64,000 nucleotides of DNA from assembly GCF_001042675.1 (NCBI RefSeq), contig NZ_AP012333.1:1178001-1242000 (forward strand), read 5' to 3'. The DNA comes from Parascardovia denticolens DSM 10105 = JCM 12538 (GTDB lineage Bacteria; Actinomycetota; Actinomycetes; Actinomycetales; Bifidobacteriaceae). The notes under the pieces were generated by a model that saw nothing but the letters and a program-made list of their open reading frames with translations, made no database searches and was not told the DNA's origin. Of this stretch, positions 41,487 to 59,435 are shown one piece after another (position 1 is the first letter of the stretch; the number at the start of each line of letters is the position of its first letter). The translations under genes were made by a program, and so were the position numbers.

Positions 41487-42956
41487 CTAATTTACATTTA
41501 TACGAAAGCAAATCGGTGTTTCATCGAATTCATTCTTATTCTGAGACCAAATCACAAGTCCTTCATCACCCTGTAAATATCGAACTACTCCAGCCCCCAA
41601 TTGCTCAACGGATTCAATTAATCCGTGGAAAGCTGGCATATTCCCTTGGTGATATCGAGCAAAACTACGGACAACAAAACGATCTTGCTTCGAGGGGTTA
41701 AGGCAATAGACATAAATCGACCCCCCATTAGTCGTAAAACGGAAATCTTGACTAGTCCACTGCGGAGCGGTCGAGTCAGCAAAAGATCCTGCGGGGGTAT
41801 GCGTAGGGCCTTCTCCGAATTTCTTCCATGGCTTGCTCCCATAGATCCCATCTCCATTAGCTCGGAGCCACCGTCCTACTTTCTTCAGAATCTTTTGGTC
41901 CTGCTCAGGAATTTTTCCATCTCCTGCAGGACCGATATTTAAAAGTAAATTCCCATTTTTACTCACCGTATCAATCAATGTTGCGATAATCTCAGCGGTA
42001 GACTTATAGTCTAGATTTTTTGTAAAACACCAAGAATTACGCGCCACAGCCGTATCGGTCTGCCAAACACTAGCGCTTGTCGTTTCGAGTCCCCCTCTTT
42101 CCACATCAACGATTCCGCTATTCCATGCCATACCATCCCCTTTGAAACAGATAGCGACATCTTTCTCCAAAGCGGCTGCTCTGTTATGATAATAAGCGCT
42201 AAAATCCTTGAGATATGGCTTAAAAGCTTCATGTTGTATCCACCAATCGAAATACACTAGCTCCGGCATGAATCTATCAACCAATTCACAGTTGCGCAAC
42301 AACCAGTCAGTTAAAAACTCGCGATTAGGGTATGGAGTACTATGCCAATCGAAATGGTCGGAGGGCTCAGGCTTAGCTGGCCAATAGAAGTCCCCACGAG
42401 ACAAATCTTCGTTGATATCCGATTCAAAATCATGGCCACGTCCCATAAACCACCAGTGTTCGGCGCGATGGTTTGACAAGGCGAAGTGAATCCCACGATC
42501 TAATGCGGCTTTTCTCAATTCGGCGATTATGTCACGATAAGGCCCCATCTCAAAAGAATTATAGTGGGAAAGGGAGCTCGCATACATTTGAAACCCATCA
42601 TGATGTTCAGCGACCGGGAAGTAATATTTTGCACCTGAACTTGCAATGATTTCCATCCACTCGTCGGGGTCAAATTCCACTGCCGCAAACTTTGGGATAA
42701 AATCTTTATAGCCAAAGTCTTTTGGAGAACCATAAATACGTTTATGATATCTGCATTCAGGTGAATCCTGGATATACATATTCCTTGAGTACCACTCGTT
42801 TCCAAAAACTGGCAGGGAATATAGCCCCCAATGAGTGAAGATTCCGAATTTCGCTGAGGAAAACCAATCTGGGATTTTTGCCTGAGACAGCGACCTCCAA
42901 GTCGGCTCATATGGCCCATCAGCAATTACGCTCTCAACATGCTGCATTGTCAACAT
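41487..42956 (-). CDS. GH29 alpha-L-fucosidase, cytoplasmic
   Basis: A 489-residue retaining alpha-L-fucosidase. Family marks: KFGIFTHWGLYSLP (His42), AEHHDGF (118-122), and the nucleophile aspartate in ELVYFDWW (D237). The C-terminal beta-sandwich (about 380-489) is present. No signal peptide, so it trims imported oligosaccharides. It is the last gene of the island's left-hand operon, 91 bases after the phosphatase gene. AT-rich codon use contrasts with the core. Whether the true substrate is fucose-containing or another 6-deoxy-sugar is open, since no fucose catabolism gene is in the window. Confidence 0.9.
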   Translation of the reverse strand: MLTMQHVESVIADGPYEPTWRSLSQAKIPDWFSSAKFGIFTHWGLYSLPVFGNEWYSRNMYIQDSPECRYHKRIYGSPKDFGYKDFIPKFAAVEFDPDEWMEIIASSGAKYYFPVAEHHDGFQMYASSLSHYNSFEMGPYRDIIAELRKAALDRGIHFALSNHRAEHWWFMGRGHDFESDINEDLSRGDFYWPAKPEPSDHFDWHSTPYPNREFLTDWLLRNCELVDRFMPELVYFDWWIQHEAFKPYLKDFSAYYHNRAAALEKDVAICFKGDGMAWNSGIVDVERGGLETTSASVWQTDTAVARNSWCFTKNLDYKSTAEIIATLIDTVSKNGNLLLNIGPAGDGKIPEQDQKILKKVGRWLRANGDGIYGSKPWKKFGEGPTHTPAGSFADSTAPQWTSQDFRFTTNGGSIYVYCLNPSKQDRFVVRSFARYHQGNMPAFHGLIESVEQLGAGVVRYLQGDEGLVIWSQNKNEFDETPICFRINVN

Positions 42957-43047: not shown

Positions 43048-44757
43048 CTATCTCGGAGAATCCTTCCTCAAAGCATCATTCCTCCACATCCAAAACCTGC
43101 TTTGCATCAAAATAGCCGATGCCACCAAAGCGAGGAAAGAAAACATAAGGAATCTTTGAGTATCTACCCCGGTAGCTGCCAATGTTGGAGGAAGGGACTC
43201 CGCATCTTGATGAGAATGGATTCCCCCACCCTCGCATTGAGATTGGGGCTTAACAGCTGGCGTGGAACTCGCAGACTTTTCACCGTTATCCCCTCCATGA
43301 TTGTTTCTTCCTGGTTGTCCAGGATAAGCAGACGTATCACCTTTTTTATCATCCTTCTGGCTCGGACTGGTTTGGATAACAACTTTAGGACTGTCAGAAT
43401 CAGTGATTCTGACAATTGCGCCTGTCTTGTCAAGAACAACTTCACTGTCCAACGCGCGGGCTAAATTAATCCTGTTCCAGCCTTCAGCGGACGTATCGAA
43501 GACATAGCCCGATTCAATGGAGGTTTTCTCCAGCACTTCTAAGCGCTGTTTCTCATTTAGTGATGGATAAGCAAACTGAAGGAGCGCACTAGCCGATAAG
43601 GGGGAAGAGGGTTTTACCCCTTGAGCGTTAATTTTAGGTAGATTGTAGGTCATTCGGCGTGTATAAACAGCCAATGCTGATTTTTTATCTTTGACCGATT
43701 CACGAGAAACCACATCAACAAAATCATTCTTGTATCCCCGAGTGGAATCAGCTTTTACATTGCTAATGCATGCTTGAAGGGTGTTCCCAAGATTATCATT
43801 TTTGCAACGCCTAACAAGATAAGAGACCAACTCATGATGCGCATTAATAATTTGCTCTTGATTCTTATTGAAATAGTCTGCCGTGGATGCTGTTCCGCTG
43901 ATACGTCCAGCAATCACATCAAGGGGATAGTGTACTCCCAAGACAATTCGGTTATTACCAGCTTCCGAGGTCCTTGCCAGTATTTCAGGCGCAAGTTCAG
44001 GAATCATGGTCGCAAGGATCAAGCCTCTGGAATACGCCTTGTTCGTATGTCCCGAGGGGAAAGAGCCCTCATAACTATTCTTGGGGTAGTCGGCGCTATG
44101 CCTTTTCCCATCCGAACCATATGCGTCTGGGACCTTGATGATATCCAAGGTTGGCGCCAACCCATTGAGATTGTTTGTCCCTTTAACTAAGTTCTCTTTA
44201 TTCGGCAGCCAACGGTCACGCTGAACATATGGCCGTGGAGTTTGGTACGCGTTCTTGGCAGGGTTCGTGCTCCAGCCTGTGGATTCCATAACCGTCTTCG
44301 TCAGCTCCAAACTTCCACCATTATAGCCTTCTTCAAAATACCGGCCAAGCACTGGGCCAAAACCATCTTTAAACTCATGCGCTACATCATCGTCTGCGTT
44401 CCGATCACTTAAAGCACGCGCTTGCTGTGCATTAATTCCCGAATTCCGGACATCATGTTGGCCGAATTCGTTTCCTTGATGGTTGATTTCCACAATCGTC
44501 GAATCATTAGCTTGAAAAAGGAGCTTCCCAGCCTGCTTGACAGCGCCTCCCCGCGCAGTTCCATCATAAGGCGCAGCCGGAGGTGTCCAATAATTATTGA
44601 TTTCCGAAAATAGAGTCGTTTGTCTGTCTTGGGCAGCGTAAGCTACCTTTACTGGTGTGTTGATACCCGCACATACCAAAACACAGGAGAGCAAACAACC
44701 CGCGAGACTTGGCAAAAAACCTTGACTGCTACTTAATAATGTAGTTCCCTTTTTCAT
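43048..44757 (-). CDS. Cell-wall-anchored PAP2-family acid phosphatase
   Basis: A 569-residue secreted protein. A signal peptide (about residues 1-40) is followed by a PAP2/class A acid phosphatase domain with the three motifs KNAYQTPRP, PSGHT and a final RIVLGVHYPLD. Ser/Pro-rich linker and the sortase-type motif LAATG, a hydrophobic helix (LMFSFLALVASAILM) and a basic tail end the protein, so it should be attached to peptidoglycan. It would remove phosphate groups outside the cell; substrate unknown. AAAGGA lies seven bases before the ATG at 44757; an in-frame TTG 15 bases upstream is less likely. The gene shares strand and spacing with the island's importer operon. Confidence 0.85.
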   Translation of the reverse strand: MKKGTTLLSSSQGFLPSLAGCLLSCVLVCAGINTPVKVAYAAQDRQTTLFSEINNYWTPPAAPYDGTARGGAVKQAGKLLFQANDSTIVEINHQGNEFGQHDVRNSGINAQQARALSDRNADDDVAHEFKDGFGPVLGRYFEEGYNGGSLELTKTVMESTGWSTNPAKNAYQTPRPYVQRDRWLPNKENLVKGTNNLNGLAPTLDIIKVPDAYGSDGKRHSADYPKNSYEGSFPSGHTNKAYSRGLILATMIPELAPEILARTSEAGNNRIVLGVHYPLDVIAGRISGTASTADYFNKNQEQIINAHHELVSYLVRRCKNDNLGNTLQACISNVKADSTRGYKNDFVDVVSRESVKDKKSALAVYTRRMTYNLPKINAQGVKPSSPLSASALLQFAYPSLNEKQRLEVLEKTSIESGYVFDTSAEGWNRINLARALDSEVVLDKTGAIVRITDSDSPKVVIQTSPSQKDDKKGDTSAYPGQPGRNNHGGDNGEKSASSTPAVKPQSQCEGGGIHSHQDAESLPPTLAATGVDTQRFLMFSFLALVASAILMQSRFWMWRNDALRKDSPR

Positions 44758-44828
44758 AGGATGTCCTTTCAAATGATCGGTTATGGAACTTTTGTTGAAA
44801 ACGTAAGCTACAATTAATAGAAAACCCC

Positions 44829-45677
44829 TTATTTCATAATCATTAGAGCGGCTCCTGCAATGATGAGCACCAAGCCTAAAAGTATCCGAGGAATATAACG
44901 TTTATCGGTCTCTTGTAAAACAAGGATTGCCGCTACCGTAGAGACGACCACATTAAGTTGTGATAGGACAAAAGCATTAACCATTCCCAACCGCGACATC
45001 GCAACGAGGTAAGTAAAAGCCGCTATAGCAAAAATTACCCCAGAGCTAAGATTCTTGAGCGTCTCTTTCGATAGAATTTCAGAGCGTTCACGGGCTGAAA
45101 TTAGTATTGAAGACAGGAACATCCCAAACGCTTGCGGAAGGAAACCAATCACTTTTGATGACTGATCCGCCAACAATGGTAAAGCCGAATAGAGCCAGTA
45201 ACCGCATGTAGAGAGAACCAAAATCATATAGTTCTTAAACGTTCCCTCGGAAGAATCCTGTCCACGTTTGTTGGTCAATATGACTCCGACTAAGATGACA
45301 AAGAGAGCGACAACGCCCAAAAAAATGAGGCGAGGGGAACCTTTCCACTCGGCAAAAAGAATCCCACCAATGAAACCGTTCCCTACTACTTGCAAAGCGG
45401 TAGAAAGGGGCATGGTCAAGCTCACGCCTAAGGATTCATAAGAGAAATACTGCCCCGCTTGCCCGAAACTCCAGAAGAAACCGGACAGGAAAAAAATTAT
45501 AAAAGCCTTCGGAGTCACGGGGAAACGGCAGAGCACTTCCATGGTCAAAGCAACTAGTAAAACACCTCCAGTAGTTCCTACAAGTTGACTTTGATAAGTC
45601 CCACCTGTGACCTTTCGAAGCCACAAAGGAAGAATCCCCCAAAAAAGCGCGGGAACTAGGCCAATAAGTATATTCAA
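44829..45677 (-). CDS. GRP/DMT-superfamily sugar transporter
   Basis: A 282-residue protein of ten short helices, typical of the glucose/ribose porter (GlcU) branch of the drug/metabolite superfamily. Two five-helix repeats are apparent; GVSLTMPLSTALQVVGNGFIGGILFAEW closes the first. In this locus it may take up a monosaccharide such as a uronic acid, rhamnose or fucose. The start is a TTG at 45677 (MNILIGLVPAL) with GAGGTG four bases before it, and no better in-frame start. It follows the lyase gene by 46 bases on the same strand. Confidence 0.82.
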   Translation of the reverse strand: MNILIGLVPALFWGILPLWLRKVTGGTYQSQLVGTTGGVLLVALTMEVLCRFPVTPKAFIIFFLSGFFWSFGQAGQYFSYESLGVSLTMPLSTALQVVGNGFIGGILFAEWKGSPRLIFLGVVALFVILVGVILTNKRGQDSSEGTFKNYMILVLSTCGYWLYSALPLLADQSSKVIGFLPQAFGMFLSSILISARERSEILSKETLKNLSSGVIFAIAAFTYLVAMSRLGMVNAFVLSQLNVVVSTVAAILVLQETDKRYIPRILLGLVLIIAGAALMIMK

Positions 45678-45723: not shown

Positions 45724-47460
45724 TCATCTCAACCTACCTTCGATACTAAACGCATCAGAAGTAAGCCCATTGAAAACGAGCTTTAGTCCGGGAAAAACAT
45801 CATCCCCATTGATATATTCATAAGCTTCCCCTGACTTATAAGGAAAGTGATATGGTAGAGAGGCGCCGTGCCCCACCAAATCCAAGGCTTGATGTCCGTT
45901 GGATACGACCACGGGAGAACCCTCGACAGCGTAGTAAGCTTCACCGTCCTTCAGAGCTCCTTGGATAATCTTAAGGTGTCTGCCCGTAAGACCTAAAGCG
46001 CAAGCAAAGGGTGTCGTAGGCCCAGCAAAATGGACACGAACCGAAAAAGCACCGGTCTTAACAGATATTGAAATCCTCGCCGACAGTTCCATCCTGCTCT
46101 TATGACGCTTCCCGAACGCCATCTGAGCATAAAAGCGTCCATCATCGGTTAACTCGTATTCGCCTGAAGCCGATTGCTCGGACGAGACTAAGGGCCCATA
46201 ATATCCACTTGAAATCGTATCTTCAAGAATCCATAAATCCCGATCTCTGGAGAGAGAATCAGGTCTTAAAGGACCAAGATCGAAAAAGTTCGGAGAAATC
46301 CGTAACGATTCTAGGCAAATCCCCTGAGTTAAATAACTGAAAATTGTGGGATTGTTCGATAGCCCTGATGCGACACGGAAGAACCGGTTGAAGTCGGATC
46401 CTGCATACACGGTGGCCGTCTCTGTAGGCTTTATAAGGCTTCCTCTGAGTACGACACGAGAAAGTTTACTTTCACAGAAATCCGTATAACTCAATTCCTT
46501 GCCAGATTCTACCTTCGATTGAGCAGAACAGTTACCATGGTCTGGAAGACAAAGAGCAATCAGCGGATTAAGGACCAGCTCGGTGAGATGACGGGCTGGA
46601 TCTAAGATCTTTCGTGATGAAAGCTCACGGGCAAAGTCAACTACCAAAGGGTTCTTTTCAATCTGCGCGAGTAATCGAGCTTGGGAAAGAAAAGGCCGCG
46701 GGTCGAATGGCTCGAATTGATCCTGCCGCCGGGATTCGATTGTCTCAAGCCGGCCATCAGGCCGTAGCAGCAAGGCTTCAGATCTCAAATTCCGATTGAC
46801 TATATGCATATAGTCACCCTTTACTAATCGTCTGCTGATAGAAATGAGACAAGGGTTTGTTACATAGGCGGCATAATTCGGACTTCGTTCGGAGTAAAGA
46901 CCATCCGATTGGATGTCAATGCCCTCACCAAGCCACAATTGCGCACGGTCCAAAAGAGTGGAATCTTCGAGGAAAACGCCGAGACCAATCAAAGCGGATG
47001 AAATCTCCCAGCGGTGATTCGGCGTATGGACCCCTCCTCCATACATGGCAGGAGCTGCCTTGCGAGCGATTCGTTTCAAAGAATCCAAGGTGCTTTGTTG
47101 CCAAGGAGACAAAGACCCCTGTATCGAGAGCATCTCGATAGCCGAGCAGAGATCATTAATGGTAAAAGCGCTGTCGGGAGGTGATTCAAGGTTATCTCCT
47201 CCCGAGAACAAACCATTCTCCAGCTGTAAGCTCTGTAAATGTTCCAGAAGAACGTCGGAAATTCCAAACAATTTTTCGATTTCAGCGATTTCCGCTACTT
47301 CTTCGAAACAGCTCAGTGCCACCACTCCTTTGATTCGTTCCATCGTCTCCCGGTGTGACAACTGTTGAAACGTCTTAAAGGCATCAGTCCGTAAGAGATC
47401 AGGGACAAAATCCGATAAAGTAGCTTCGATGAGTTTTCTTTTGTAAAGCTTGTCAAGCAT
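45724..47460 (-). CDS. Candidate intracellular polysaccharide lyase (heparinase II/III-like, toroid plus beta-sandwich)
   Basis: A 578-residue protein with no signal peptide. Residues 1-300 are helical and probably form an (alpha/alpha)6 toroid. They contain HTPNHRWEISSAL and DGLYSERSPNY, candidate Asn/His and Tyr catalytic residues of uronate-cleaving lyases. The second half is beta-rich. Overall it resembles uncharacterised heparinase II/III-like proteins, though it matches no lyase family I can name with certainty. It sits between an ABC importer and a transporter gene and shares the locus with a GH105 hydrolase and the unsaturated-uronate pathway, so cleavage of imported oligosaccharides by beta-elimination is the natural reading. 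GAAAGGA precedes the ATG at 47460. Confidence 0.6.
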   Translation of the reverse strand: MLDKLYKRKLIEATLSDFVPDLLRTDAFKTFQQLSHRETMERIKGVVALSCFEEVAEIAEIEKLFGISDVLLEHLQSLQLENGLFSGGDNLESPPDSAFTINDLCSAIEMLSIQGSLSPWQQSTLDSLKRIARKAAPAMYGGGVHTPNHRWEISSALIGLGVFLEDSTLLDRAQLWLGEGIDIQSDGLYSERSPNYAAYVTNPCLISISRRLVKGDYMHIVNRNLRSEALLLRPDGRLETIESRRQDQFEPFDPRPFLSQARLLAQIEKNPLVVDFARELSSRKILDPARHLTELVLNPLIALCLPDHGNCSAQSKVESGKELSYTDFCESKLSRVVLRGSLIKPTETATVYAGSDFNRFFRVASGLSNNPTIFSYLTQGICLESLRISPNFFDLGPLRPDSLSRDRDLWILEDTISSGYYGPLVSSEQSASGEYELTDDGRFYAQMAFGKRHKSRMELSARISISVKTGAFSVRVHFAGPTTPFACALGLTGRHLKIIQGALKDGEAYYAVEGSPVVVSNGHQALDLVGHGASLPYHFPYKSGEAYEYINGDDVFPGLKLVFNGLTSDAFSIEGRLR

Positions 47461-47479: not shown

Positions 47480-48358
47480 TCAACCTTTCAAACCTGCATC
47501 AAGATCCGCACCAACAATGTATTTCTGGAAAATGCAGAAGAGGATTAAGAGAGGAATCATTGAAATAACAGAGGCTGGAAGCAACACTGACCAATCCACT
47601 TTTTCTGCCCCTACCAAGCTTCGGAGTGCGACTTGCAGCGTGAAATTCTTGGGATCGTTCAGAATGATCAATGGCCAAATATAATCATTCCAACGCCATT
47701 CCATGGAAAAAATAGCCAGAGTAATCATCGTGGGGAGTGACATCGGTAACATCACGTGCATGAAAATTTGTAGTTCCGAACAACCATCAACACGGGCCGC
47801 CTGCATCATTTCGTCGTCCACACTGATGAAGAATTGCCGAAACATGAAAATTCCTGTTGCTGTGATGATGGAAGGAACAATGATGCCTGCGAGGGTGTTA
47901 TACATCCCCATCTTGTGAACGACAATAAATGATGGCGACATGATGACTTCCGTAGGAAGCATGGTAGTCAGCAAAAGCGCGATGAAAAATGCCCTTGTCC
48001 ACCAATAATCATATTTTGCCAGCGCATAGCCGGTAATGGCACTCAATGCGACAGTTAAAACTGTGGTGATTATCGCTACGACAGCCGTATTCATGAAGTA
48101 GCGTGCAAAATCAATTCGCTGCCAAGCAGCTATATACCCCGAAACTGTCCAGCGCCGCGGGAAGAAACTCATCGGCAAAGCGAAAAGCTCATCGGGGCCT
48201 TTGAAGGAGGATAGGAGCAACCAGAAAATGGGAAAGGAGTAAATGATGACCATAACCCAAAGAGCTATGGTTACCGGTCCACAATTCCTCAGTTTAGCTA
48301 ATACTTTCCGTACAGGATGACGGCTTTGTTTGCTGTTTTCAATCTCATTCGTCATCAT
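47480..48358 (-). CDS. ABC oligosaccharide transporter permease, MalG type (island)
   Basis: A 292-residue six-helix permease of the CUT1 importer class. The EAA-like loop is QAARVDGCSELQIFMHVMLP, in which the usual initial Glu is Gln. FIGFLLT-type helices and a final PLLILFCIFQKYIVGADLDAG tail match MalG. Its ATG overlaps the upstream permease stop (ATGA), and it ends 20 bases before the lyase start, so transporter and lyase are one transcription unit. The ATPase is not encoded here. Confidence 0.92.
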   Translation of the reverse strand: MMTNEIENSKQSRHPVRKVLAKLRNCGPVTIALWVMVIIYSFPIFWLLLSSFKGPDELFALPMSFFPRRWTVSGYIAAWQRIDFARYFMNTAVVAIITTVLTVALSAITGYALAKYDYWWTRAFFIALLLTTMLPTEVIMSPSFIVVHKMGMYNTLAGIIVPSIITATGIFMFRQFFISVDDEMMQAARVDGCSELQIFMHVMLPMSLPTMITLAIFSMEWRWNDYIWPLIILNDPKNFTLQVALRSLVGAEKVDWSVLLPASVISMIPLLILFCIFQKYIVGADLDAGLKG

Positions 48359-49260
48359 TGACCTCCGTTCTTACGATTGACAACCATTTGAATGAGAGTC
48401 AAGACGACCAGGATTATCATGAGAATCATGGAGGCCGCAGATGCGTATCCAATTCGGGAATATGAGAAGCCTGTCTGGTAGATATACTGCACAACCAGCC
48501 TATTAGAGGTTCCGGGGCCACCATTATTCAAAGCCTGAACCATAGCGAATTCCTTAATCCCACCGATGGAGCCAAGGAGAATCACCATAAACATCGTGGG
48601 TGCAATACCGGGGAGAGTGATGTGAATGAATCGTTGCCAAGCATTTGCTCCATCAATCTCCGCCGCTTCATACAATGAAGTGGGAACATTTTTTAGCGCG
48701 CCGATAAAGAGAAGCATATTGAACGCGATACCCCAACAACTGGCAAAAATTAGGACAAGAAAAGCCAGGTTGGAATCCGTCTCCCAATGCAAAGCTTTTC
48801 CGCCAAAGGCGTGAATAACTTGATTGACAATTCCAAAGCTTTCCCCAAACATCCAGCGCCAAATCAATCCGATGATGATTGGAGAGACCAAGGATGGTAT
48901 GAAGAAAAGCAATTTCGCAGCTGAACTGCCCAAAGCATGCCTGCTTGTTACAAGAATCGCAGCTAAAAGAGCAAGCGCTGTTGCACAAGGAACATTTATG
49001 ACAACGTATTCGAATGTGCGTTTCAGAGCAGACCAGAAATCCGGATCCACAAAGAGCCGCTGAAAATTTCGAATTCCAACGAACTTATAATTATCTAGCC
49101 CTTTATAGTTCGTAAATGAATAATAAAGGCCAATTACAGCGGGTCCAACAAAGAAAATTATATACAAAATCGCTGCGGGGATGATAAGAGCCAGAGGGAA
49201 CAGAATTGGCTTTTTCATTTTCGAGGGATTCTTTGCATCACTATATCGTCGCAGAGCCAT
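48355..49260 (-). CDS. ABC oligosaccharide transporter permease, MalF type (island)
   Basis: A 301-residue six-helix permease with the coupling loop EAAEIDGANAWQRFIHITLP near residues 200-220. It pairs with the MalG-type permease whose start overlaps its stop. AAAGGAG precedes the ATG at 49260. A gap of 97 bases separates it from the binding-protein gene upstream. The three genes form the importer that feeds the island's uronate and amino-sugar enzymes. Confidence 0.92.
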   Translation of the reverse strand: MALRRYSDAKNPSKMKKPILFPLALIIPAAILYIIFFVGPAVIGLYYSFTNYKGLDNYKFVGIRNFQRLFVDPDFWSALKRTFEYVVINVPCATALALLAAILVTSRHALGSSAAKLLFFIPSLVSPIIIGLIWRWMFGESFGIVNQVIHAFGGKALHWETDSNLAFLVLIFASCWGIAFNMLLFIGALKNVPTSLYEAAEIDGANAWQRFIHITLPGIAPTMFMVILLGSIGGIKEFAMVQALNNGGPGTSNRLVVQYIYQTGFSYSRIGYASAASMILMIILVVLTLIQMVVNRKNGGQ

Positions 49261-49357: not shown

Positions 49358-50629
49358 TTAATCATCCGTAGCGTTGTACCAGGAAGTGTACCCAGCATTC
49401 ATGCTGCTAATGGCTTTATCCAAAGTTTCTTCGCCAGTGAGATACTTGAGAGTATGAGCTTTCATAGGATCTTCCTCTGTCGTGCCTCCTGCTAAAGTTG
49501 CTTGCAGTTGAACGATGATTTGGTGCGAAGCCAGCTCCTTATCAGCAACCTTATTGATATACGTAAGATAAAGTTGCTGATCCTCGTTACGCTGCGCATA
49601 GACAGGTGAAATTCCTGCAGTTGCTGGGAGATAGCTCCCCTGCTCACAGAATTTCGTATAATTCTTTTTCTGATAAAACCAATTGAGGAATTTCCGACCT
49701 GATTTACTAAAAGTGACCATATAGCTGGTTCCGAGATTGGTTGCCCTTGTTGGCTGCTGCGGCATCACGACGCTCTTCCATTTAAAAGAGGAGATTGAAT
49801 TGATGAAATCGGCAATTTGCCAATTACCAGAATAATACGCAGCAACTTGTCCTGTTTTGAAGAGAGCTGACGGATCGGCGTTGGAGGCGAAAACCGATTT
49901 AGGCATAATCACATCATTATCGATTTTCTTCAAAAACTGCAATGCATCCTTAGCCTTATTATCAAGAGCCCAGCTGCCATCTTTCTGCTTCCGAACCCCC
50001 TTTGACCCGAATGAATACATGAAAGACCGTTCGCGATGTGTCGAGGGGTCCATAACAAATCCGTATTTTGCACCAGTCTTCTTCTGAACTGTTGTAACAG
50101 CTTGGATGAATTCGTCCCAGCTCCAACTCTCTTCATAAGACTTGGGATAAGAGACGCCAGCTTTATCAAATAATGATGTGTTGATGAACATGCCAACAGC
50201 CGTCAAATCAGACGGCATTTGTAGGATTTTCCCTTTCGAATCTTTGGTAACGAGGCTTTTCATCACCCCCGTCTTATTTGAAAGGTCTGTCAGATCCTGT
50301 AATTTACCCATCCAGACCGGATCCAGCTGTGGAACGCGGGCGACATCAGGCAAATCGGCGGCCTTACTCGCGTTCGAGATTTTCGTATTCAAATCAGAAT
50401 AGGGAACTTCCATGATATTGACTTTTACGCCTGTTTCTTTGGTGTAAAGTTTTGCCATGGTCTTGTATGCATCATTCTGATCATCCGAAAAAGTAAGCGT
50501 GATGCTCTTTTTATTTCCATCATCCGACGATGTAGAACCGCCATTACCATTCGCTCCGCAAGCTGCGGTGGCAAACAGAGTGGCTGTGGATAAGAGAAAG
50601 GCCAATGCTTTCTTCCATTGATTTCTCAT
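49358..50629 (-). CDS. ABC transporter solute-binding lipoprotein (island)
   Basis: A 423-residue extracellular binding protein of family 1. The signal peptide ends at the lipobox ATAC (Cys at about 24), then a Gly/Ser/Asn-rich linker. It should capture the locus substrate at the membrane surface. First gene of the leftward operon: binding protein, two permeases, lyase, transporter, phosphatase, fucosidase. A good promoter candidate lies just upstream (-10 at 50687-50692). It is divergent from the ROK regulator, which probably controls it. Confidence 0.93.
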   Translation of the reverse strand: MRNQWKKALAFLLSTATLFATAACGANGNGGSTSSDDGNKKSITLTFSDDQNDAYKTMAKLYTKETGVKVNIMEVPYSDLNTKISNASKAADLPDVARVPQLDPVWMGKLQDLTDLSNKTGVMKSLVTKDSKGKILQMPSDLTAVGMFINTSLFDKAGVSYPKSYEESWSWDEFIQAVTTVQKKTGAKYGFVMDPSTHRERSFMYSFGSKGVRKQKDGSWALDNKAKDALQFLKKIDNDVIMPKSVFASNADPSALFKTGQVAAYYSGNWQIADFINSISSFKWKSVVMPQQPTRATNLGTSYMVTFSKSGRKFLNWFYQKKNYTKFCEQGSYLPATAGISPVYAQRNEDQQLYLTYINKVADKELASHQIIVQLQATLAGGTTEEDPMKAHTLKYLTGEETLDKAISSMNAGYTSWYNATDD

Positions 50630-50692: not shown

Positions 50693-50750
50693 GCATATCT
50701 TTTGAGAAAAAAGCCAATCCTTTAAAATAAGCCCTTTACGGCGTGTCTTT

Positions 50751-50770
50751 TCTCGAAATATCTCGAAATG
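50751..50770. promoter_or_regulatory. Tandem 10-base repeat in the divergent ROK/importer promoter region
   Basis: TCTCGAAATA and TCTCGAAATG stand head to tail, one helical turn apart, upstream of the importer promoter. A related TTTTCTCAAA lies at 50701-50710 on the minus strand. The spacing suggests a regulator binding site, possibly for the adjacent ROK protein. Confidence 0.4.
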
Positions 50771-50856
50771 CTTGGTACAATTTTTATCAAAAATCATATA
50801 ATTCTCGTCTCTGTGGATGGTTACTGTATGATAAAGACGGATTACTTGGAGGCGCT

Positions 50857-51945
50857 ATGGATTCTCAAAATACCGAATCTCTGCTTGCGAAACGCTGTAC
50901 CGCGATCGTCAACTATCTATGCACATATCAAACCGCATCAAGCAAAGAGATCGCCGATGGGATTGGGGTTCCTGCATCAACCACTTATAAGTTATGCTCA
51001 TATCTAAAACAGCTTCACGTAATCCAAGCATCGGGGAATCGGCATATCCAGAGAGGACGTAGTCAGCAGCTTTTTTCACTGAACTCAAGTTTCCAATCGT
51101 GCATTGTGGTTGATATTGAGCTGAAAGCTATCGATGGCTATATCACGGGGATTGATAACAGCATACTTTATCACGCCGCTGTTTCCTCTGAATCCTTTCA
51201 TGATAAACCGAACCACATCGATTTGACTTTGAACCTTATTGATGAGCTTAAGAGCTGGGCAAGCGATCATCAAATCCCTTGCAAAGGACTTTCTCTCATC
51301 GTTCCAGGAAGCGTCAAGAAAAATGGCGTTGTAAGTACTGCCAGTGAACTGTCGTGGATGAATGTCTCTCTTGGCGATATCCTCCGCGTAAAATATCAAG
51401 ACCCGATTTTCATCATCAATAACGCTAACGCTTTCGCAATGGGCGAATCTATGAAACATCAATCATCGGAAAGTAACCGGAAAGTTTTAGTTGGTCTGGT
51501 CATCAGGGAATTTGGGGTTGGCACCGGATTAATCGTGAACAATCAAATGATCAATGGTGTACACGGATCAGCGGGAGAAATCGGTTTCAGCTTAACCAAT
51601 TTGAATTCTTTCGATTCTTATTACACCCTTTCAGGTGATTTGGAGACCCGACTTCGAGATGAATTCGTCCAGGCTAACGATAATAAGGAGAGAGCTTATG
51701 ACACGATTATCTCTCTCATTTCCATGGCAATCGCGAATATCTGCGTCCTTCTTGACCCAGATACTGTTTTCTTCGATATCGCCCCAAACATCAAGGCGTA
51801 TATCGACCTCGAAAAAGTACATGAAAAACTCGTGGGCCGTATCCCCTATCCACCGAATCTCGTCGAAGATACGGCAAGTCAAGAAAGTAGAGCAATTGGG
51901 GCATCCGCCCTTGTCACAGCTAAAGTAAGAACAACCCTCTTTTAG
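50857..51945 (+). CDS. ROK-family transcriptional regulator (island)
   Basis: A 362-residue regulator. An N-terminal winged helix (about residues 10-75; RCTAIVNYLCTYQTASSKEIADG) precedes a ROK sugar-kinase-like domain, which here senses a ligand; the DIxLKAIDGYITGIDN and GEIGFSLTNL segments correspond to the ROK phosphate and hinge regions. The usual zinc-binding CxCGxxGC is absent. By position it controls the importer operon and the kinase gene downstream. TTGGAGG lies four bases before the ATG at 50857, which is therefore preferred over an ATG at 50743. Confidence 0.88.
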   Translation: MDSQNTESLLAKRCTAIVNYLCTYQTASSKEIADGIGVPASTTYKLCSYLKQLHVIQASGNRHIQRGRSQQLFSLNSSFQSCIVVDIELKAIDGYITGIDNSILYHAAVSSESFHDKPNHIDLTLNLIDELKSWASDHQIPCKGLSLIVPGSVKKNGVVSTASELSWMNVSLGDILRVKYQDPIFIINNANAFAMGESMKHQSSESNRKVLVGLVIREFGVGTGLIVNNQMINGVHGSAGEIGFSLTNLNSFDSYYTLSGDLETRLRDEFVQANDNKERAYDTIISLISMAIANICVLLDPDTVFFDIAPNIKAYIDLEKVHEKLVGRIPYPPNLVEDTASQESRAIGASALVTAKVRTTLF

Positions 51946-51987: not shown

Positions 51988-52920
51988 ATGCCCATTCAAC
52001 AATTTCTCGGTATCGATATCGGAGGCACGAAGACCTCCTTTGCCCTAGAAGATGAAAACGGCACTCGAAGTGATATCACAGTACCAACCACTAGTTGGAG
52101 AGAGTGCAGCGATACTGTTAAACTCGAAGATTTGGACCATCTTTTAAACTCCTTTGGACATCTCGAACTACCCATTGACCCGAGGATCACTTCCATCGCC
52201 ATTGGTATGCACGGTGCGGAGACCGAATCACAAATCCGTAAAATACAATCGTATCTCCGTGAGAAGTTACATTCATCAATAGCCTTGGTGAATGATGCCG
52301 AATTGATCAGCATGGCGGAAGGAATCGACGATGCAATAAATCTCGTTATCGGCACCGGTACGATTTGTCTCTCACGCGATAAAGACAACAGACTTATCCG
52401 AGCCGGAGGATATGGATACGGCTGGCTCTTAGATGACTATTGCAGCGCACCGGCACTTGTCAGGGAATCAATGAAGGAGATGCTCTCCACGGCGACTACC
52501 CAAGGCACCGATTTTATTCTTTCCGATCCCCTTTTCTCCCTTTTTCTTCAAGCTTTTCACGCAGACGACCTTTTTTCATTGACCTTTGCCTTCGGAGAGA
52601 ATGCACAGGAAACAGCTTGGGGCCATTATGCCCCCCTCGTATTCGATGCGGCAAACGCTGGATCCCCAATCGCACATCGGGTAATTCGCAATGCTATAGA
52701 CCATGTTTTGGAATATTTAGAGTCGGTTCAAAGGCAGGGAGCGACAGGAAGTTCCGTTGTAGCTGCCGGCGGCGTAATTTTGCACCAGAGAAAGTTACAG
52801 GAGTTCCTTGCGAAGAAGCTTAGAACTCTCCCCTTTCCGCTTACCTTGCACATCGCCAACACAGCCCCAGTCGAAGGCGCACTCCGGCTCGCCCAACGGA
52901 TCGTTGCCCAACAGGCATAA
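51988..52920 (+). CDS. BadF/BadG-family N-acetylhexosamine kinase (GlcNAc kinase-like)
   Basis: A 310-residue ASKHA-fold kinase. The phosphate-1 loop LGIDIGGTKTSFAL (residues 7-20), the LVNDAELISMAEG segment and GTGTICLSRD with the glycine-rich GGYGYGWLLDD are typical of eukaryotic-type N-acetylglucosamine kinases of the BadF/BadG/BcrA/BcrD family. It would make GlcNAc-6-phosphate for NagA and NagB, encoded 6-8 kb away in the same island. It follows the regulator by 42 bases. No strong ribosome site is seen before the ATG at 51988. GlcN or another amino sugar is an alternative substrate. Confidence 0.8.
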   Translation: MPIQQFLGIDIGGTKTSFALEDENGTRSDITVPTTSWRECSDTVKLEDLDHLLNSFGHLELPIDPRITSIAIGMHGAETESQIRKIQSYLREKLHSSIALVNDAELISMAEGIDDAINLVIGTGTICLSRDKDNRLIRAGGYGYGWLLDDYCSAPALVRESMKEMLSTATTQGTDFILSDPLFSLFLQAFHADDLFSLTFAFGENAQETAWGHYAPLVFDAANAGSPIAHRVIRNAIDHVLEYLESVQRQGATGSSVVAAGGVILHQRKLQEFLAKKLRTLPFPLTLHIANTAPVEGALRLAQRIVAQQA

Positions 52921-52979: not shown

Positions 52980-54077
52980 TCAATAAAATTCTCTCAGATA
53001 CTCGGTAAGAGCAAGAATAGCCATAGCCTGCCCATAAGGCATGGTGGAGAGACGGATATTCATATAAGATTCCTTATTTTTGCCAAGAGGTGTCCCAATT
53101 GATACTTGGTTAAGGTCGCCCGTATCAGTGATCTCCCCTATCAAACCATGGACTGCCCGTAAAGCAGCGGCGTGGTAATGACGGTCGAGTAATCGCATAT
53201 GAATACCTAAAAGAAGGCCATAAGCGATTCCTGCTGTCGCGGAACTTTCCTCATAGGAAGCATCATCATCCAAAACCGTATGCCACATGCCTGTTGGACT
53301 CTGCACTTCCAGCAAAGAGCGAACCTGATTCTCAAAAGAAAGCTGCACTACCTGATAGAAGGAATCACTTGGCCCCAAGCCCAATACCGCGACTAACTCA
53401 GGCAAAGCAATGGTTGCCCAGGAATTTCCTCTCCCCCAGAACACGGAGCTCAAATTGCTCCGCTCGTTAAAGGACCAACCATGGTACCAATAGCCTGTCG
53501 CTTTATCTTGGAGATAATAAATGTGTAAAAGCGCCTGCTTCTTTGCTTCTTCGACATATGACTTATCGTTAAGAAGCACACCAATTTTGGCCAAAGCGAG
53601 GACTGACATCATAAGTGTATCATCCCAAATCTCACCAGGATGGCTATCGCCCAACGTTACATGTTGAAAGGCGCCGCCCACACGGGGCAGTTCATGATAG
53701 ATCCAATCGCCCCAGTTCTCCAGATAAGGTAGATATTTTTTATCGCCGGTCTCTTCATACAAAAAAGCGAGCGTCAGAACCGGAGCCATGGTATTGATGT
53801 TTTTTTCCACTTGCTCATTACTCGAGAATTGATCACTGAACCATTCTTCAATCGAATGCAGAATTCGCTGCTCCCGTGTAAGGGAATAATATCGCCATAA
53901 GCCGTAAAGACCAACGCCAGCAGTCCATTCCCAATAACGAAAACTTTTGTTATCAATCAATCGCCCATTTTTAGCTCTGAACGAGAACTCTCCTGTATCA
54001 TCAGTGAGTTCAACCATTCTTAGCGACAACTTATTAATAACTTTGATGAGAGTAGATTTATCAAAGTCTGATTTCAT
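52980..54077 (-). CDS. GH105/GH88-type unsaturated uronyl hydrolase
   Basis: A 365-residue (alpha/alpha)6-barrel hydrolase. YWEWTAGVGLYGLWRYY near residue 50, the aspartates of GEIWDDTLMMSVLALAKIG (Asp152/153), WGRGNSWATIALPEL, and GMWHTVLDDDASYEESSATAGIAYG match the GH105 unsaturated rhamnogalacturonyl/glucuronyl hydrolase group. Such enzymes add water to the double bond made by a lyase and free a 5-keto-4-deoxyuronate. No signal peptide. AGGAG lies six bases before the ATG at 54077; ATG at 54083 is too close. It is the last gene of the six-gene uronate operon and ends at a strong terminator. Confidence 0.9.
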   Translation of the reverse strand: MKSDFDKSTLIKVINKLSLRMVELTDDTGEFSFRAKNGRLIDNKSFRYWEWTAGVGLYGLWRYYSLTREQRILHSIEEWFSDQFSSNEQVEKNINTMAPVLTLAFLYEETGDKKYLPYLENWGDWIYHELPRVGGAFQHVTLGDSHPGEIWDDTLMMSVLALAKIGVLLNDKSYVEEAKKQALLHIYYLQDKATGYWYHGWSFNERSNLSSVFWGRGNSWATIALPELVAVLGLGPSDSFYQVVQLSFENQVRSLLEVQSPTGMWHTVLDDDASYEESSATAGIAYGLLLGIHMRLLDRHYHAAALRAVHGLIGEITDTGDLNQVSIGTPLGKNKESYMNIRLSTMPYGQAMAILALTEYLREFY

Positions 54078-54158
54078 AATCATCTCCTGCTTATTAAGAG
54101 ACCCTGCAAGAACAGCATGAACGGTTCTTACAGGGATCCATAGTGAGGTGGAAAAAGG

Positions 54159-54800
54159 TTAGCCCTTCAGCATAGCCGCGATAATATCGCGGATTTGACC
54201 ATCTTGGGCATTTGCCAGGAAATACTCTTCGAAATGTTTGCCGGAAATCGTATTTTTGACGAATTCTTCATCCAATTCATGAAGAATTTGAGGCATAGGC
54301 TTATAAAGGGTACTCTTGAGCGAACGCAAAATTCTCGCATTGCACTGCTCAGGAATTGCACGTTCTCGAGGATACCCTCCACCAATCGGATCGGAGAACA
54401 AGCGTTCAAAAATCAATTTCAGATTCAGCTCAGCCCCCCATCCAAAACCTTTCGCGAAAGGAATAGATAAAGCGTTCCCACCATTAATCTGACTGAAAAG
54501 ATACGCATCGGTGGGCTCAACCGCAAGGCCACAAACCACTCCCGGGAAAGCGTTCAATGCAGTCATGGCGCCTTCACCAGTGCCACATCCGGTGATGACG
54601 AAGTCGGCCGCGCCAGAATTAAGCAGGATAGCAGCTAAAAGCCCATTTTGTACATAGGTGAGCTGTGGTTCGTCTTCTTCCCCATACATCCCATAGTTAA
54701 AGGATTCATACCCTTTCCTATCGCAAACGACTTTCAACGTATCGAAAATCAGCTGATTTTTCCCAGCTTGAGAATTTTCGTTAATTAAGGCTACTTTCAT
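54159..54800 (-). CDS. dhuI: RpiB/LacAB-family isomerase, DhuI-like
   Basis: A 213-residue member of the RpiB/LacA/LacB isomerase superfamily. It begins MKVALINENSQAGKNQLIF and carries the active-site FVITGCGTGEGAM and the AVEPTDAYLFSQINGGNAL segment. Length and sequence recall the streptococcal isomerase DhuI, which converts the unsaturated-uronate product DHU to the 3-deoxy-D-glycero-2,5-hexodiulosonate form. AAGGG lies seven bases before the ATG at 54800. Adjacent to the DhuD-like dehydrogenase, as in the streptococcal glycosaminoglycan cluster. The gene symbol is by resemblance, not by a search. Confidence 0.82.
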   Translation of the reverse strand: MKVALINENSQAGKNQLIFDTLKVVCDRKGYESFNYGMYGEEDEPQLTYVQNGLLAAILLNSGAADFVITGCGTGEGAMTALNAFPGVVCGLAVEPTDAYLFSQINGGNALSIPFAKGFGWGAELNLKLIFERLFSDPIGGGYPRERAIPEQCNARILRSLKSTLYKPMPQILHELDEEFVKNTISGKHFEEYFLANAQDGQIRDIIAAMLKG

Positions 54801-54880
54801 ATGTTTTCCCTTTTTAAAATGTTTAATTTGCACAGTTTTTGCTACTGGTCTTCAAACATCATCACCTACAGACACCACAA

Positions 54881-55684
54881 TCATTGAGGCTGCTTGCCAA
54901 TATATGCCAAGATGCCACCATCGACATAAAGAACATGCCCATTGATAAAATCCGATGCCTCAGAGGCCAAGAAAACAGCAGGTCCTTGCAAATCCTCTGT
55001 TGTTCCCCAACGTGCAGCAGGAGTTTTAGCGATAATGAACTGATCGAATGGATGCCTCGAACCATCAGGTTGAATTTCCCGCAAAGGCGCAGTCTGAGGT
55101 GTGGCGATATACCCTGGTCCAATTGCATTGCACTGGATATTCTCACCGCCATATTCTGAACAAATATTTCGAGTAAGCATCTTAAGACCACCTTTCGCCG
55201 CGGCATAAGCACTTACCGTTTCACGACCAAGCTCACTCATCATCGAGCAGATGTTGATGATTTTCCCATGCCCCTTTTCAATCATACCTGGAATCACCGC
55301 CTTGGAAACAATAAAGGGACCCGTGAGATCGATATCAATTACCCGGCGCCAGTCAGATTCAGACATTTCCACCATTGGGATTCTCTTGATAATACCTGCG
55401 TTGTTGACAAGAATATCGATTACCCCCAAATCATTTTCGATGGATTCGACTAACTGACCAACAGCCTTCTCATCCGTAACATCGCACACATATCCCTTAA
55501 CAGGAATACCGGCTTCCTCGTATGCCTTCATACCACGCTCGACTGAGCTTTCGTCGATATCGTTAAACGAGATCCGAGCACCAGCCTTATGCAAGGCAGA
55601 AGCAATCGCAAACCCAATCCCATAACTGGCACCGGTAACCAGCGCGACCTTCCCCTGCAAAGAAAACTTTTCCATTGAGAACAT
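54881..55684 (-). CDS. dhuD: SDR dehydrogenase, DhuD/KduD-like (forms 2-keto-3-deoxygluconate)
   Basis: A 267-residue short-chain dehydrogenase. TGASYGIG (residues 17-24) binds NAD(P), NNAG and the Ser-Tyr-Lys set in ICSMMSELGRETVSAYAAAKGG form the active site. The ending GHVLYVDGGILAYIGKQP is close to streptococcal gluconate-5-dehydrogenase-like DhuD, which reduces hexodiulosonate to 2-keto-3-deoxy-D-gluconate. AAAGGAG lies six bases before the ATG at 55684. It lies directly before dhuI and after the TIM-barrel gene in the operon. Confidence 0.88.
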   Translation of the reverse strand: MFSMEKFSLQGKVALVTGASYGIGFAIASALHKAGARISFNDIDESSVERGMKAYEEAGIPVKGYVCDVTDEKAVGQLVESIENDLGVIDILVNNAGIIKRIPMVEMSESDWRRVIDIDLTGPFIVSKAVIPGMIEKGHGKIINICSMMSELGRETVSAYAAAKGGLKMLTRNICSEYGGENIQCNAIGPGYIATPQTAPLREIQPDGSRHPFDQFIIAKTPAARWGTTEDLQGPAVFLASEASDFINGHVLYVDGGILAYIGKQPQ

Positions 55685-55744: not shown

Positions 55745-56581
55745 TCAGTATTCGCTATATCTATCGACAATTGATCGTATTGCGTCTCCTTTCGTCTCTT
55801 CAAAAACCACTGATGCCATAGGCTTATTCGTCTTGACCAAATCCAGGATATGCGTGGTTGGAAGAACTCCTAAACCGTTATCACAGGTCTGGACTTGTTC
55901 CTGGCCAGGTACAACAGTGAAGTCCCGGACATGGATTGCGAAAATATCGTCGCATAAGGAGTCAAAACCTTTCTCGATGATCCTGGGCAATTCTTCAACA
56001 TTATGTGCGCAAACCAAAGAGGTGGGATCGAAAATGACGCCTAGCCATGGTGAGCTTATTTCATGAAGAATACGCAGAGTCTTAGAAAGAGAACAAATCG
56101 GATGATTGATTCCCGGTTCAATCGCAACCCTGCAACCCACCTCTTCTCCATAAGAGACGAGTTCTTCTATTACAGCCCGCACCGCAGTATATGATTCCTC
56201 GGCAAAATTCTTCGGATCATAAACGTTGGGGATGGGGCGTACCGAGCCTGTCTCGCTCGCGACGAAATCCGCGCCAAAACAGCCAGCGAAACGCAGATAG
56301 TTCTTGAAACGGCGAATTAGCTGTCGCCGATAGACTGAATCCGGATGTATCATGTTAAAGTAACAGCTTAAAACCGCGATTTGTACATCCGCTGATGAGA
56401 ACACTCGCCTACAATAAGCTCCAAGTCCAGGATTCATCTTTTTCCCATCAGAGATTTCAGGAAATTGTATCGGAAGCGAAAGCTGGACACCATGAACACC
56501 ATATTCTTGCAATTTATTTGCAAGTTGAGGAATCGTAGTGACATTAGAAACGTCATGTCCGCGAACTGCTATATTGATCAT
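55745..56581 (-). CDS. Xylose isomerase-like TIM-barrel protein, sugar isomerase/epimerase
   Basis: A 278-residue AP-endonuclease-2/xylose-isomerase-like TIM barrel. Metal-binding residues typical of the family are visible: AIEPGINHP, GVIFDPTSLVCAHN (Asp/Asn), FAIHVRDF (His) and a final SVVFEE (Glu). The role is not known. It may isomerise or epimerise a uronate or another sugar released from the substrate, and is not part of the standard DhuI-DhuD-KdgK-Eda route. Spacing of 21 and 60 bases to its operon neighbours shows co-transcription. Confidence 0.82.
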   Translation of the reverse strand: MINIAVRGHDVSNVTTIPQLANKLQEYGVHGVQLSLPIQFPEISDGKKMNPGLGAYCRRVFSSADVQIAVLSCYFNMIHPDSVYRRQLIRRFKNYLRFAGCFGADFVASETGSVRPIPNVYDPKNFAEESYTAVRAVIEELVSYGEEVGCRVAIEPGINHPICSLSKTLRILHEISSPWLGVIFDPTSLVCAHNVEELPRIIEKGFDSLCDDIFAIHVRDFTVVPGQEQVQTCDNGLGVLPTTHILDLVKTNKPMASVVFEETKGDAIRSIVDRYSEY

Positions 56582-56602: not shown

Positions 56603-57256
56603 TCAATCTAAAGCGCTTGAGAGAATCATCCTCATCTTTTTACAATGCCGTGTGACCGCGTCCCAATCATGTGCTTCGTACGCTTGATTCGGCACGGGAA
56701 ATGAGCCACCAACAGCGAAGACATTTTTGAGTTTGGCAAAAGAAATCATGTTGTCCAAATTAATCCCTCCGGTTGGCAAGAAAGAAACATCAGGGAAGGG
56801 CGCCTGGAGCGACGTTAGGGTTTGGACTCCCCCATAGGCGACAGCAGGGAAAAACTTCATATACCGTAGTCCTAATTCACGCACGCACTCGATATCCGTC
56901 GGAGTAGCTATGCCAGGAATCACTGACACATCGTTCTCAATACACCATTTCACTACTTTGGTATTAAGAGCAGGTGTAACGATGCCGGAGCAACCCGCGC
57001 TGATAGCATTCTTCGCCATGTTGACTTCATGAACCGTCCCCGCAAGAAGAATTATCTCGGGCATCTTTTCGTGAATCTGTTCCATGCCAGCGATTGCGGC
57101 ACCCGATCGAAAAGTAATTTCAGCTACTGGTGTATCAGCCTCGGCCAAGGCTTTAGCGAGAGGAACGGCATCGTGAGAATCCTTCAAAGTGATTAGAGGT
57201 ACTAAGCCGATTGTCGAGAGATTCTCGACCAAGGAATCAGTTTTGCTCAATTTCAT
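56603..57256 (-). CDS. eda: KDPG/KHG aldolase
   Basis: A 217-residue class I aldolase that splits 2-keto-3-deoxy-6-phosphogluconate into pyruvate and glyceraldehyde-3-phosphate. AEITFRSG, the AGTV strand, PGIATPTDIECV, the Schiff-base lysine in MKFFPA and FLPTGGI are all in place. Its first 20 bases overlap the kinase gene end. GGAAGGT precedes the ATG at 57256. Entner-Doudoroff aldolase is uncommon in bifidobacteria, which supports an acquired locus. Confidence 0.93.
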   Translation of the reverse strand: MKLSKTDSLVENLSTIGLVPLITLKDSHDAVPLAKALAEADTPVAEITFRSGAAIAGMEQIHEKMPEIILLAGTVHEVNMAKNAISAGCSGIVTPALNTKVVKWCIENDVSVIPGIATPTDIECVRELGLRYMKFFPAVAYGGVQTLTSLQAPFPDVSFLPTGGINLDNMISFAKLKNVFAVGGSFPVPNQAYEAHDWDAVTRHCKKMRMILSSALD

Positions 57257-58271
57257 TACCTTCCCTTAATTGTAATTGTAGGTGTGATTCAATAAAATTC
57301 GTTAATTCCTCAGAATTAGGAAGCCCGTCGTTGTCCGACTCAGATTGAGTTTGTATTGCCCCTATCGCACAGCCTCTTTCGAGAGCCCGTGCGAAAGGAA
57401 GCCCCTCCGCCAAGGCAGACAGAACTCCCGCTGCAAAACCATCTCCAGCTCCAACGGTATCTACGACCGACTCGACGATAAAAGCACTTACATAAGTCTC
57501 ATGCTTCCCATCAGTTAGATATGCACCTTTGACCCCATCTTTGATAATCACAAACCGTGCGCCATTCTTGATGAAGAAAGAACCCATCGCAGCGAGGCTA
57601 TCCTTTTGGCTCAAAAAAGCAGCCTCACCTCGGCCAGGAATTACCAAATCGGCCTTGGAACAGAAATCATTGAGACGGGAACGCATCATCCTCTCGTCCT
57701 TCCAGAGAGAAATGCGAACATTTGGATCGAATGATAAAAATATATTATTCCTTTTCGCAATATCCACCATTTCATAAGCGGCTTCTAAGCAAGAATCTGA
57801 CAGCGCAGGGAGAATCCCGGTCATGTGGATAGCTTTGATTTCATCAAAATCGACTTCGCGTATATCCATGGGCGCGATGGTTGACGCGGCTGAATCATGG
57901 CGCCAATACACGACTTCAGGATCACCTTCAGAAACTCTGGATTTCATCATCAAACCAGTGCGGCGATTATCCAGCTTAAACAAATATTTATCAGAGATTT
58001 GATTCGACTGTAATTTCAACCGTATTTTACGACCTACCGGATCATCTCCTACTTTGCTAAGGAAAAGAGCTCGCTGTCCTAGACGAGAAAGCCCAATTGC
58101 TACGTTCAACTCGGCACCTGCCACAGAGCTGGAAAAATGCCTCACTGTGGCAAGATCTCCTCGGTCGTGTGCGACAAAAAGGCCCAGCGCTTCTCCAGCC
58201 AGAAGAAAGGCCTTAGTTCCGCACTCCCGGTTGGTTGAGGACCGAAAGTCATCCATCCGCAGATCAACCAT
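57237..58271 (-). CDS. kdgK: 2-keto-3-deoxygluconate kinase (PfkB family)
   Basis: A 344-residue PfkB-type sugar kinase that phosphorylates 2-keto-3-deoxygluconate. GAELNVAIGLSRLG near residue 51 is the substrate-binding region, and DTVGAGDGFAAGVLSALAEG near 275 is the anion hole and catalytic Asp. It opens the six-gene leftward operon (kinase, aldolase, TIM barrel, dehydrogenase, isomerase, GH105). The GAAAG ribosome site is about ten bases before the ATG at 58271, so an internal start cannot be excluded. The basic N-terminal 20 residues are longer than in most family members. Confidence 0.88.
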   Translation of the reverse strand: MVDLRMDDFRSSTNRECGTKAFLLAGEALGLFVAHDRGDLATVRHFSSSVAGAELNVAIGLSRLGQRALFLSKVGDDPVGRKIRLKLQSNQISDKYLFKLDNRRTGLMMKSRVSEGDPEVVYWRHDSAASTIAPMDIREVDFDEIKAIHMTGILPALSDSCLEAAYEMVDIAKRNNIFLSFDPNVRISLWKDERMMRSRLNDFCSKADLVIPGRGEAAFLSQKDSLAAMGSFFIKNGARFVIIKDGVKGAYLTDGKHETYVSAFIVESVVDTVGAGDGFAAGVLSALAEGLPFARALERGCAIGAIQTQSESDNDGLPNSEELTNFIESHLQLQLREGNEIEQN

Positions 58272-58560: not shown

Positions 58561-58601
58561 TGTAATCATTAAGAGACGAACCTCCTAAGGAAAGGATGAC
58601 C

Positions 58602-59390: not shown

Positions 59391-59435
59391 GTCGTACGAA
59401 CTCATTTGCTTTTCACGCTGAAACGTAGGTACATC

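Follow-up and report, generated by a model that had tools for sequence, protein, structure and literature searches.

Which reaction does the putative intracellular lyase P0001 of Parascardovia denticolens catalyze, and which substrate does it act on? The protein is encoded at positions 45724–47460 of the window, i.e., the stretch of 64,000 nucleotides analyzed here from a genome of 1.89 Mb, and the preliminary description had proposed it as a possible new polysaccharide lyase working inside the cell. The open reading frame was confirmed at exactly these coordinates; its strand, which had not been given, is the minus strand. It encodes 578 amino acids, begins with ATG and runs as a single uninterrupted frame, and the plus strand across the same positions is crowded with stop codons. 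As described before, a signal peptide is not seen when the N-terminal sequence is read, and the gene lies directly after an importer, starting 19 bp past the second ABC permease gene. A genome scan yielded 294 loci encoding relatives, and the two motifs HTPNHRW (residues 145–151) and DGLYSERSPNY (residues 186–196), located in the helical half of the protein as proposed, show little or no variation among 35 non-redundant sequences, which argues against a chance reading frame. All loci kept belong to the Actinomycetota, and the gene is present in 35 of 396 genomes sampled from the order. For the Bacillota, two diverged copies were found, both in Subdoligranulum records. A search of annotated plasmid records gave three matches, none of them annotated.

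The fold gives a first answer regarding the type of enzyme. The AlphaFold2 model (pLDDT 92.3, pTM 0.91) has two domains, helices up to about residue 302 and a beta-rich part spanning residues 324–577, bearing out the helical first and beta-rich second half that had been read from the sequence, and the proposed toroid plus beta domain was recovered in structural comparisons. The best Foldseek matches in the PDB are lyases of the families PL17, PL15, PL12, PL39, and PL8 with E-values of 2e-9 to 1e-6; the TM-scores are only about 0.5, suggesting that the relation to these families is remote. For PL12, PL15, PL17, PL21, PL33, and PL39 a single fold and catalytic set in common was described (PMC11848413); no PL33 entry is among the top 50 Foldseek matches. 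Neither Pfam nor NCBIfam holds a model that matches the putative lyase, a characterized hydrolase family included, and the heparinase II/III model PF07940 does not match any of 35 members of the family. Searches of PDB sequences with the single protein and with profiles returned chance matches only, e.g., a designed repeat protein, and a viral fold library gave no significant match. The protein is a member of a family outside the Pfam and NCBIfam models, built of a helical toroid and a beta-sandwich.

Next to the fold, the alignment of profiles connects the family to known lyases. The comparison by hhalign with heparinase II/III proteins, represented by seven Actinomycetota proteins recovered with the heparinase II/III model, resulted in a probability of 86.5% and an E-value of 5e-6, and the aligned region is confined to the catalytic stretch comprising N148-H149-W151 (NHxW), DG, ERS, and Y196. 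As a negative control, the family was aligned with GH105, likewise a helical toroid, which gave 1.6% and an E-value of 0.03. In the seven superfamily rows the Asn, the Tyr, and an HxHxD motif of the beta domain are all invariant. The lyase family has the toroid, the antiparallel beta domain, and the Asn and Tyr positions of the toroid; the match to the Pfam model and the HxHxD motif are absent, and its beta half contains no conserved His in the alignment of 35 rows or in the alignment of the two phyla. The absence of HxHxD sets the family apart from the heparinase II/III superfamily. As a result of the fold and of the aligned catalytic residues, it is well supported that the putative lyase works like these enzymes, sharing the predicted chemistry of heparinase II/III-type lyases; membership in PF07940 is not. 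The Foldseek matches and the profile alignment also speak for the earlier proposal of a new intracellular polysaccharide lyase. The best structural matches, the PL17 oligoalginate lyases (7bjt; Alg17c, 4ok4), resemble the protein in the Asn-His pair of the toroid, the catalytic Tyr, and a beta-domain Tyr proposed as base, but it is only about 10–12% identical to them, has no sequence-profile match to PDB chains, lacks HxHxD, and alginate genes are not seen nearby. The PL15 exo-heparinase (6ljl) and the PL12 heparinase III (5jmd, 4fnv) share the fold, and the superfamily profile aligns at the Asn and the Tyr; the putative lyase differs from both in lacking the beta-domain HxHxD and in acting within an importer-linked pathway.

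The conserved residues outline a candidate active site. In the 35 non-redundant sequences HTPNHRWE, SERS..Y, SRRQDQ, and several Arg, Phe, and Gly positions are invariant, and across both phyla this holds for HTPNHRW, ERS, SxRQD, Y421, and R442. The HTPNHRWE motif (residues 145–152; window 47005–47028, minus strand) contains N148-H149, the proposed catalytic Asn-His pair, of which N148 corresponds in the alignment to an Asn that does not vary among heparinase II/III proteins. The SERSPNY motif (residues 190–196; 46873–46893, minus strand) ends with Y196, the proposed catalytic Tyr, which pairs with Tyr268, an invariant residue of the heparinase II/III proteins, and is itself invariant in 35 Actinomycetota rows, with a shift by one residue in the Bacillota locus L091. 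The SRRQDQ motif (residues 243–248; 46717–46734, minus strand) is invariant in 35 rows, its S, R245, Q246, and D247 are also kept in the Bacillota rows, and judged from this conservation it is a probable carboxylate-binding or structural loop. Finally, Y420-Y421 in the beta domain (46198–46203, minus strand), of which Y421 is invariant and Y420 nearly so in both phyla, may provide a second catalytic Tyr. As a beta-domain Tyr is the proposed base in PL17 (PMC11848413) and the family has a conserved Tyr-Tyr pair, a Tyr-based site would be reasonable.

The genes surrounding the lyase indicate the kind of substrate. Upstream on the minus strand follow two ABC permeases (permease 2 at 47480–48358 and permease 1 at 48355–49260), assigned to the CUT1 type by sequence reading and adjoining the lyase as homologs in nearly all relatives, and the solute-binding lipoprotein of the importer (49358–50629; Pfam SBP_bac_8/SBP_bac_1), of which homologs are present in 78 of 81 long lyase loci. 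Permease matches were found in 85 of 88 lyase loci. The importer locus has no ATPase gene of its own. Importers without an ATPase gene in the locus are the usual type for oligosaccharides, suggesting that the substrate of the lyase is probably an imported oligosaccharide. On the plus strand a ROK-family regulator (50743–51945; Pfam ROK) and a BadF-type, NagK-like amino-sugar kinase (51988–52920; PDB MurNAc/GlcNAc kinase 8zo3, E 9e-13) are encoded, the latter with homologs in about half of the lyase loci. The unsaturated-uronate pathway, which had been placed in the same locus, indeed lies 5–11 kb upstream on the minus strand: a GH105 unsaturated-uronidase (52980–54083; Pfam GH88, 294 bits; PDB GH105 3qwt, E 1e-111), a DhuI-like 4-deoxy-5-ketouronate isomerase (54159–54833; PDB 4u8e, gbs1892, E 2e-98), a DhuD/KduD-like dehydrogenase (54881–55684; NCBIfam PRK07097, 493 bits at a cut-off of 369), a KDPG aldolase (56603–57256; Pfam Aldolase), and a KDG kinase-like PfkB kinase (57237–58271), whose best NCBIfam matches, IolC-N and KDG kinase, are all under cut-off. 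Between dehydrogenase and aldolase a TIM-barrel sugar isomerase/epimerase is encoded (55745–56581, minus strand; Pfam AP_endonuc_2), for which the known DhuI/DhuD route offers no step, and its gene lies directly 3' of the lyase in Bifidobacterium loci (L001, L125, L126). Genes for a NagB-like glucosamine-6-phosphate deaminase (58596–59390), with homologs in some lyase loci, and a NagA-like GlcNAc-6-phosphate deacetylase (59406–60755), both assigned by sequence reading, follow on the plus strand. On the other side, directly 3' of the lyase, a RhaT/GlcU-type sugar permease is encoded (44829–45677, minus strand; Pfam Sugar_transport, 234 bits), which also occurs 3' of the lyase in Bifidobacterium panos (L001) and could carry the released sugar or inositol. 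It is followed by an apparently secreted PAP2 acid phosphatase (43048–44772, minus strand; Pfam PAP2; PDB class A acid phosphatases, E 2e-11) with a putative wall-anchoring LAATG motif. An enzyme cleaving lipids was not identified in the window locus.

Across relatives the link to an unsaturated-uronidase recurs: both the window and the actinomycete locus L119 encode GH105 close to the lyase, and in the Bacillota locus L091 it is encoded directly upstream of the lyase, the window GH105 being 46% and 41% identical to those of L119 and L091, respectively. Most lyase loci outside the Bifidobacterium group have neither a dedicated uronate pathway nor GH105 nearby. The context given in the preliminary description had indicated unsaturated uronate only; the wider neighborhood adds inositol, amino sugar, mannose, and phosphate, pointing to a substrate that was not considered there. 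The genes iolC, iolD, and iolG adjoin the lyase in several loci of Microbacterium and Occultella, and iolB, iolC, iolD, and an iolA-type dehydrogenase gene occur in L119 and L080, all above the curated NCBIfam cut-offs. In L119 the lyase, importer, and GH105 genes lie inside the iol cluster, separating iolC-D-A-E from iolB. Among genomes sampled evenly from the order, 31 have both the lyase and iolD, and 30 of these contain iolD as a single copy; in 8 of the 31 genomes, from 4 of 10 genera, the two genes are found within 9 kb of each other (chance expectation 0.16 genomes). The corresponding P values are about 5e-12 if every genome is counted and 2e-7 if each genus is represented by a single genome; both are approximate and treat genomes or genera as independent. 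None of the 36 GH1 genes in the same genomes, used as a control for catabolic genes at large, lies within 10 kb of iolD, the nearest at 44 kb. Moreover, 31 of 35 lyase genomes have iolD compared to 64 of 149 in the order, a difference that is confounded by kinship. In the first locus set, iol-type genes, one or more per locus, occur in 11 loci; the majority of lyase loci are free of iol genes over a distance of 9 kb, and iolD was not found in the window genome or in two related Bifidobacteriaceae genomes. At the level of the family the lyase is linked to inositol catabolism, the window genome itself excepted.

When mapped on a tree of 65 lyases built with FastTree, the iol neighborhood requires eight changes, so that it was not inherited just once. 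NagK and iol neighborhoods never coincide on this tree, on which kinase counts are low as the non-redundancy filtering dropped most Streptomyces rows, and the window falls into a NagK/NagB clade, where iol neighbors are absent from every row. Among the other recurrent neighbors in long lyase loci are the BadF/NagK-type amino-sugar kinase (43 loci), a PAP2-type phosphatase (about 38, the majority from Streptomyces loci with a common layout), a GH38 alpha-mannosidase (18), GH2 (8), GH51 (6), and GH95 (2, named by sequence reading). A TPP enzyme in L022, considered as a candidate IolD, turned out to be a glyoxylate carboligase and was left out of the counts.

Taken as a set, the neighbors acting on inositol, amino sugars, alpha-mannosides, phosphate esters, and unsaturated uronates point to the sugar head of plant sphingolipids of the glycosyl inositol phosphoryl ceramide (GIPC) type, Man or GlcN(Ac)-1,4-GlcA-inositol-phosphate. 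GIPCs rank among the most abundant plant membrane lipids; they comprise HexN(Ac) types, a B-series, and forms with pentoses, and GlcA-IPC is specific to plants (PMC9113257). In infected Arabidopsis plants, Hex-GlcA-inositol is set free in forms that bear a phosphate and in forms that do not (PMC11496612). The fold, the match of the catalytic site, and the linkage to importer, GH105, and inositol genes are computational results; the reaction, the cleaved bond, and the identity of the substrate as GIPC head, degraded via a cytoplasmic oligosaccharide lyase, are inferred, and to this assignment we give an even chance. The secreted PAP2 acid phosphatase would strip the phosphate from inositol-phosphate glycans freed from plant GIPC, and the ABC importer would bring in Man- or GlcN(Ac)-(1,4)-GlcA-(1,2)-myo-inositol. 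By beta-elimination the lyase would cleave the linkage to O-4 of GlcA, with N148/H149 holding the carboxylate or enolate, Y196 acting as acid/base, and Y420/Y421 assisting, so that Man or GlcN(Ac) is released and an unsaturated GlcA stays attached to inositol. From this product GH105 would liberate inositol and 4-deoxy-5-ketouronate, the latter passing through DhuI/DhuD, KDG kinase, and KDPG aldolase, while the amino sugar may enter via NagK/NagA/NagB and inositol via the iol genes where present. In the clade to which the window belongs, the steps of the pathway that concern inositol rest on homology; as its genome lacks iolD, inositol would be a waste product there, which the RhaT/GlcU-type permease could, speculatively, export. 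The position of the window in the NagK/NagB clade matches the HexN(Ac) type of GIPC. More broadly, Actinobacteria and some Bacillota might possess a dedicated GIPC-head pathway around the new lyase family, with an amino-sugar (NagK, including the window) and a mannose (iol/GH38) flavor, a generalization that we put forward tentatively, at slightly below even chances. A fungal GIPC phospholipase C from Botrytis acts on the same proposed lipid class and releases inositol phosphate glycans, but it is an unrelated enzyme that cuts a phosphodiester outside the cell instead of a sugar bond (PMC11496612). Bacterial degradation of GIPC heads or papers on the putative lyase were not found in the open-licence literature, which omits most subscription journals. 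If the proposal is true, it explains a conserved unannotated operon in plant- and soil-associated actinobacteria, in Bifidobacteriaceae, and in one gut Bacillota genome, may point to bacteria having a pathway of their own for feeding on an abundant plant membrane lipid, and would provide tools for GIPC analysis and a new substrate class, glycolipid heads, for the lyase superfamily. With another substrate, the protein would still represent a new lyase family by Pfam and NCBIfam.

The main rival to the GIPC head is the cleavage of imported oligosaccharides of the glycosaminoglycan type by the lyase (from heparosan/heparan, hyaluronan, chondroitin, or similar bacterial capsules), followed by the unsaturated uronidase, DhuI/DhuD, and a GlcNAc pathway, which we regard as unlikely overall, yet as a serious contender. 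DhuI and DhuD are known from streptococcal glycosaminoglycan use, the window isomerase matches gbs1892, NagK, NagA, and NagB are present in the locus, and PL12, PL15, PL21, and PL33, having the same fold, act on glycosaminoglycans. In the window's clade, a glycosaminoglycan with GlcNAc-1,4-GlcA units agrees with the data nearly as well as a GIPC head. However, the GH38 enzymes, the acid phosphatases, and the inositol genes that adjoin the lyase in more than one genus are left unexplained, and it is the inositol genes that make a substrate range restricted to glycosaminoglycans less likely. Furthermore, the window uronidase is GH105-like, and a PL8 search of the window genome gave no match, as was also the case for the control genomes.

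A second alternative, considered improbable, is that the enzyme acts on a different glycan that contains Man- or hexosyl-1,4-GlcA but no inositol, e.g., the Man-GlcA-diacylglycerol of corynebacteria, the side chains of xanthan, or the termini of plant gums, and that the iol adjacency is a coincidence of habitat. GH38, GH2, GH51, and GH95 neighbors in part of the family are consistent with such glycans, but the iol linkage recurs in different layouts in 4 of 10 genera and the amino-sugar and phosphatase neighbors are left unexplained; amino-sugar and inositol genes together weigh against xanthan as sole substrate. Finally, a uronate C5-epimerase or non-catalytic relative on the same fold, as in human DS-epi1, which has the fold and catalytic residues of these lyases, would agree with the missing HxHxD but is most improbable of all given the close linkage in two phyla to GH105, which needs a lyase product.

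Some further observations concern individual loci. Near the lyase cluster of the window, a GH29 alpha-L-fucosidase without evident signal peptide is encoded at 41487–42956. In the Bacillota locus (L091:8412-12563), genes for a 769-residue protein with a weak C-terminal heparinase II/III match and for a 599-residue protein without Pfam match come before GH105 and the lyase. In a single genus, five genomes (G089, G414, G467, G480, G555) encode a GH1 glycosidase at a distance of about 6–9 kb from the lyase. One genome (G446) carries two lyase copies, L097 and L098, one beside NagK/NagB/GH95 and the other beside an iol cluster, which look as if specialized for two substrate types.
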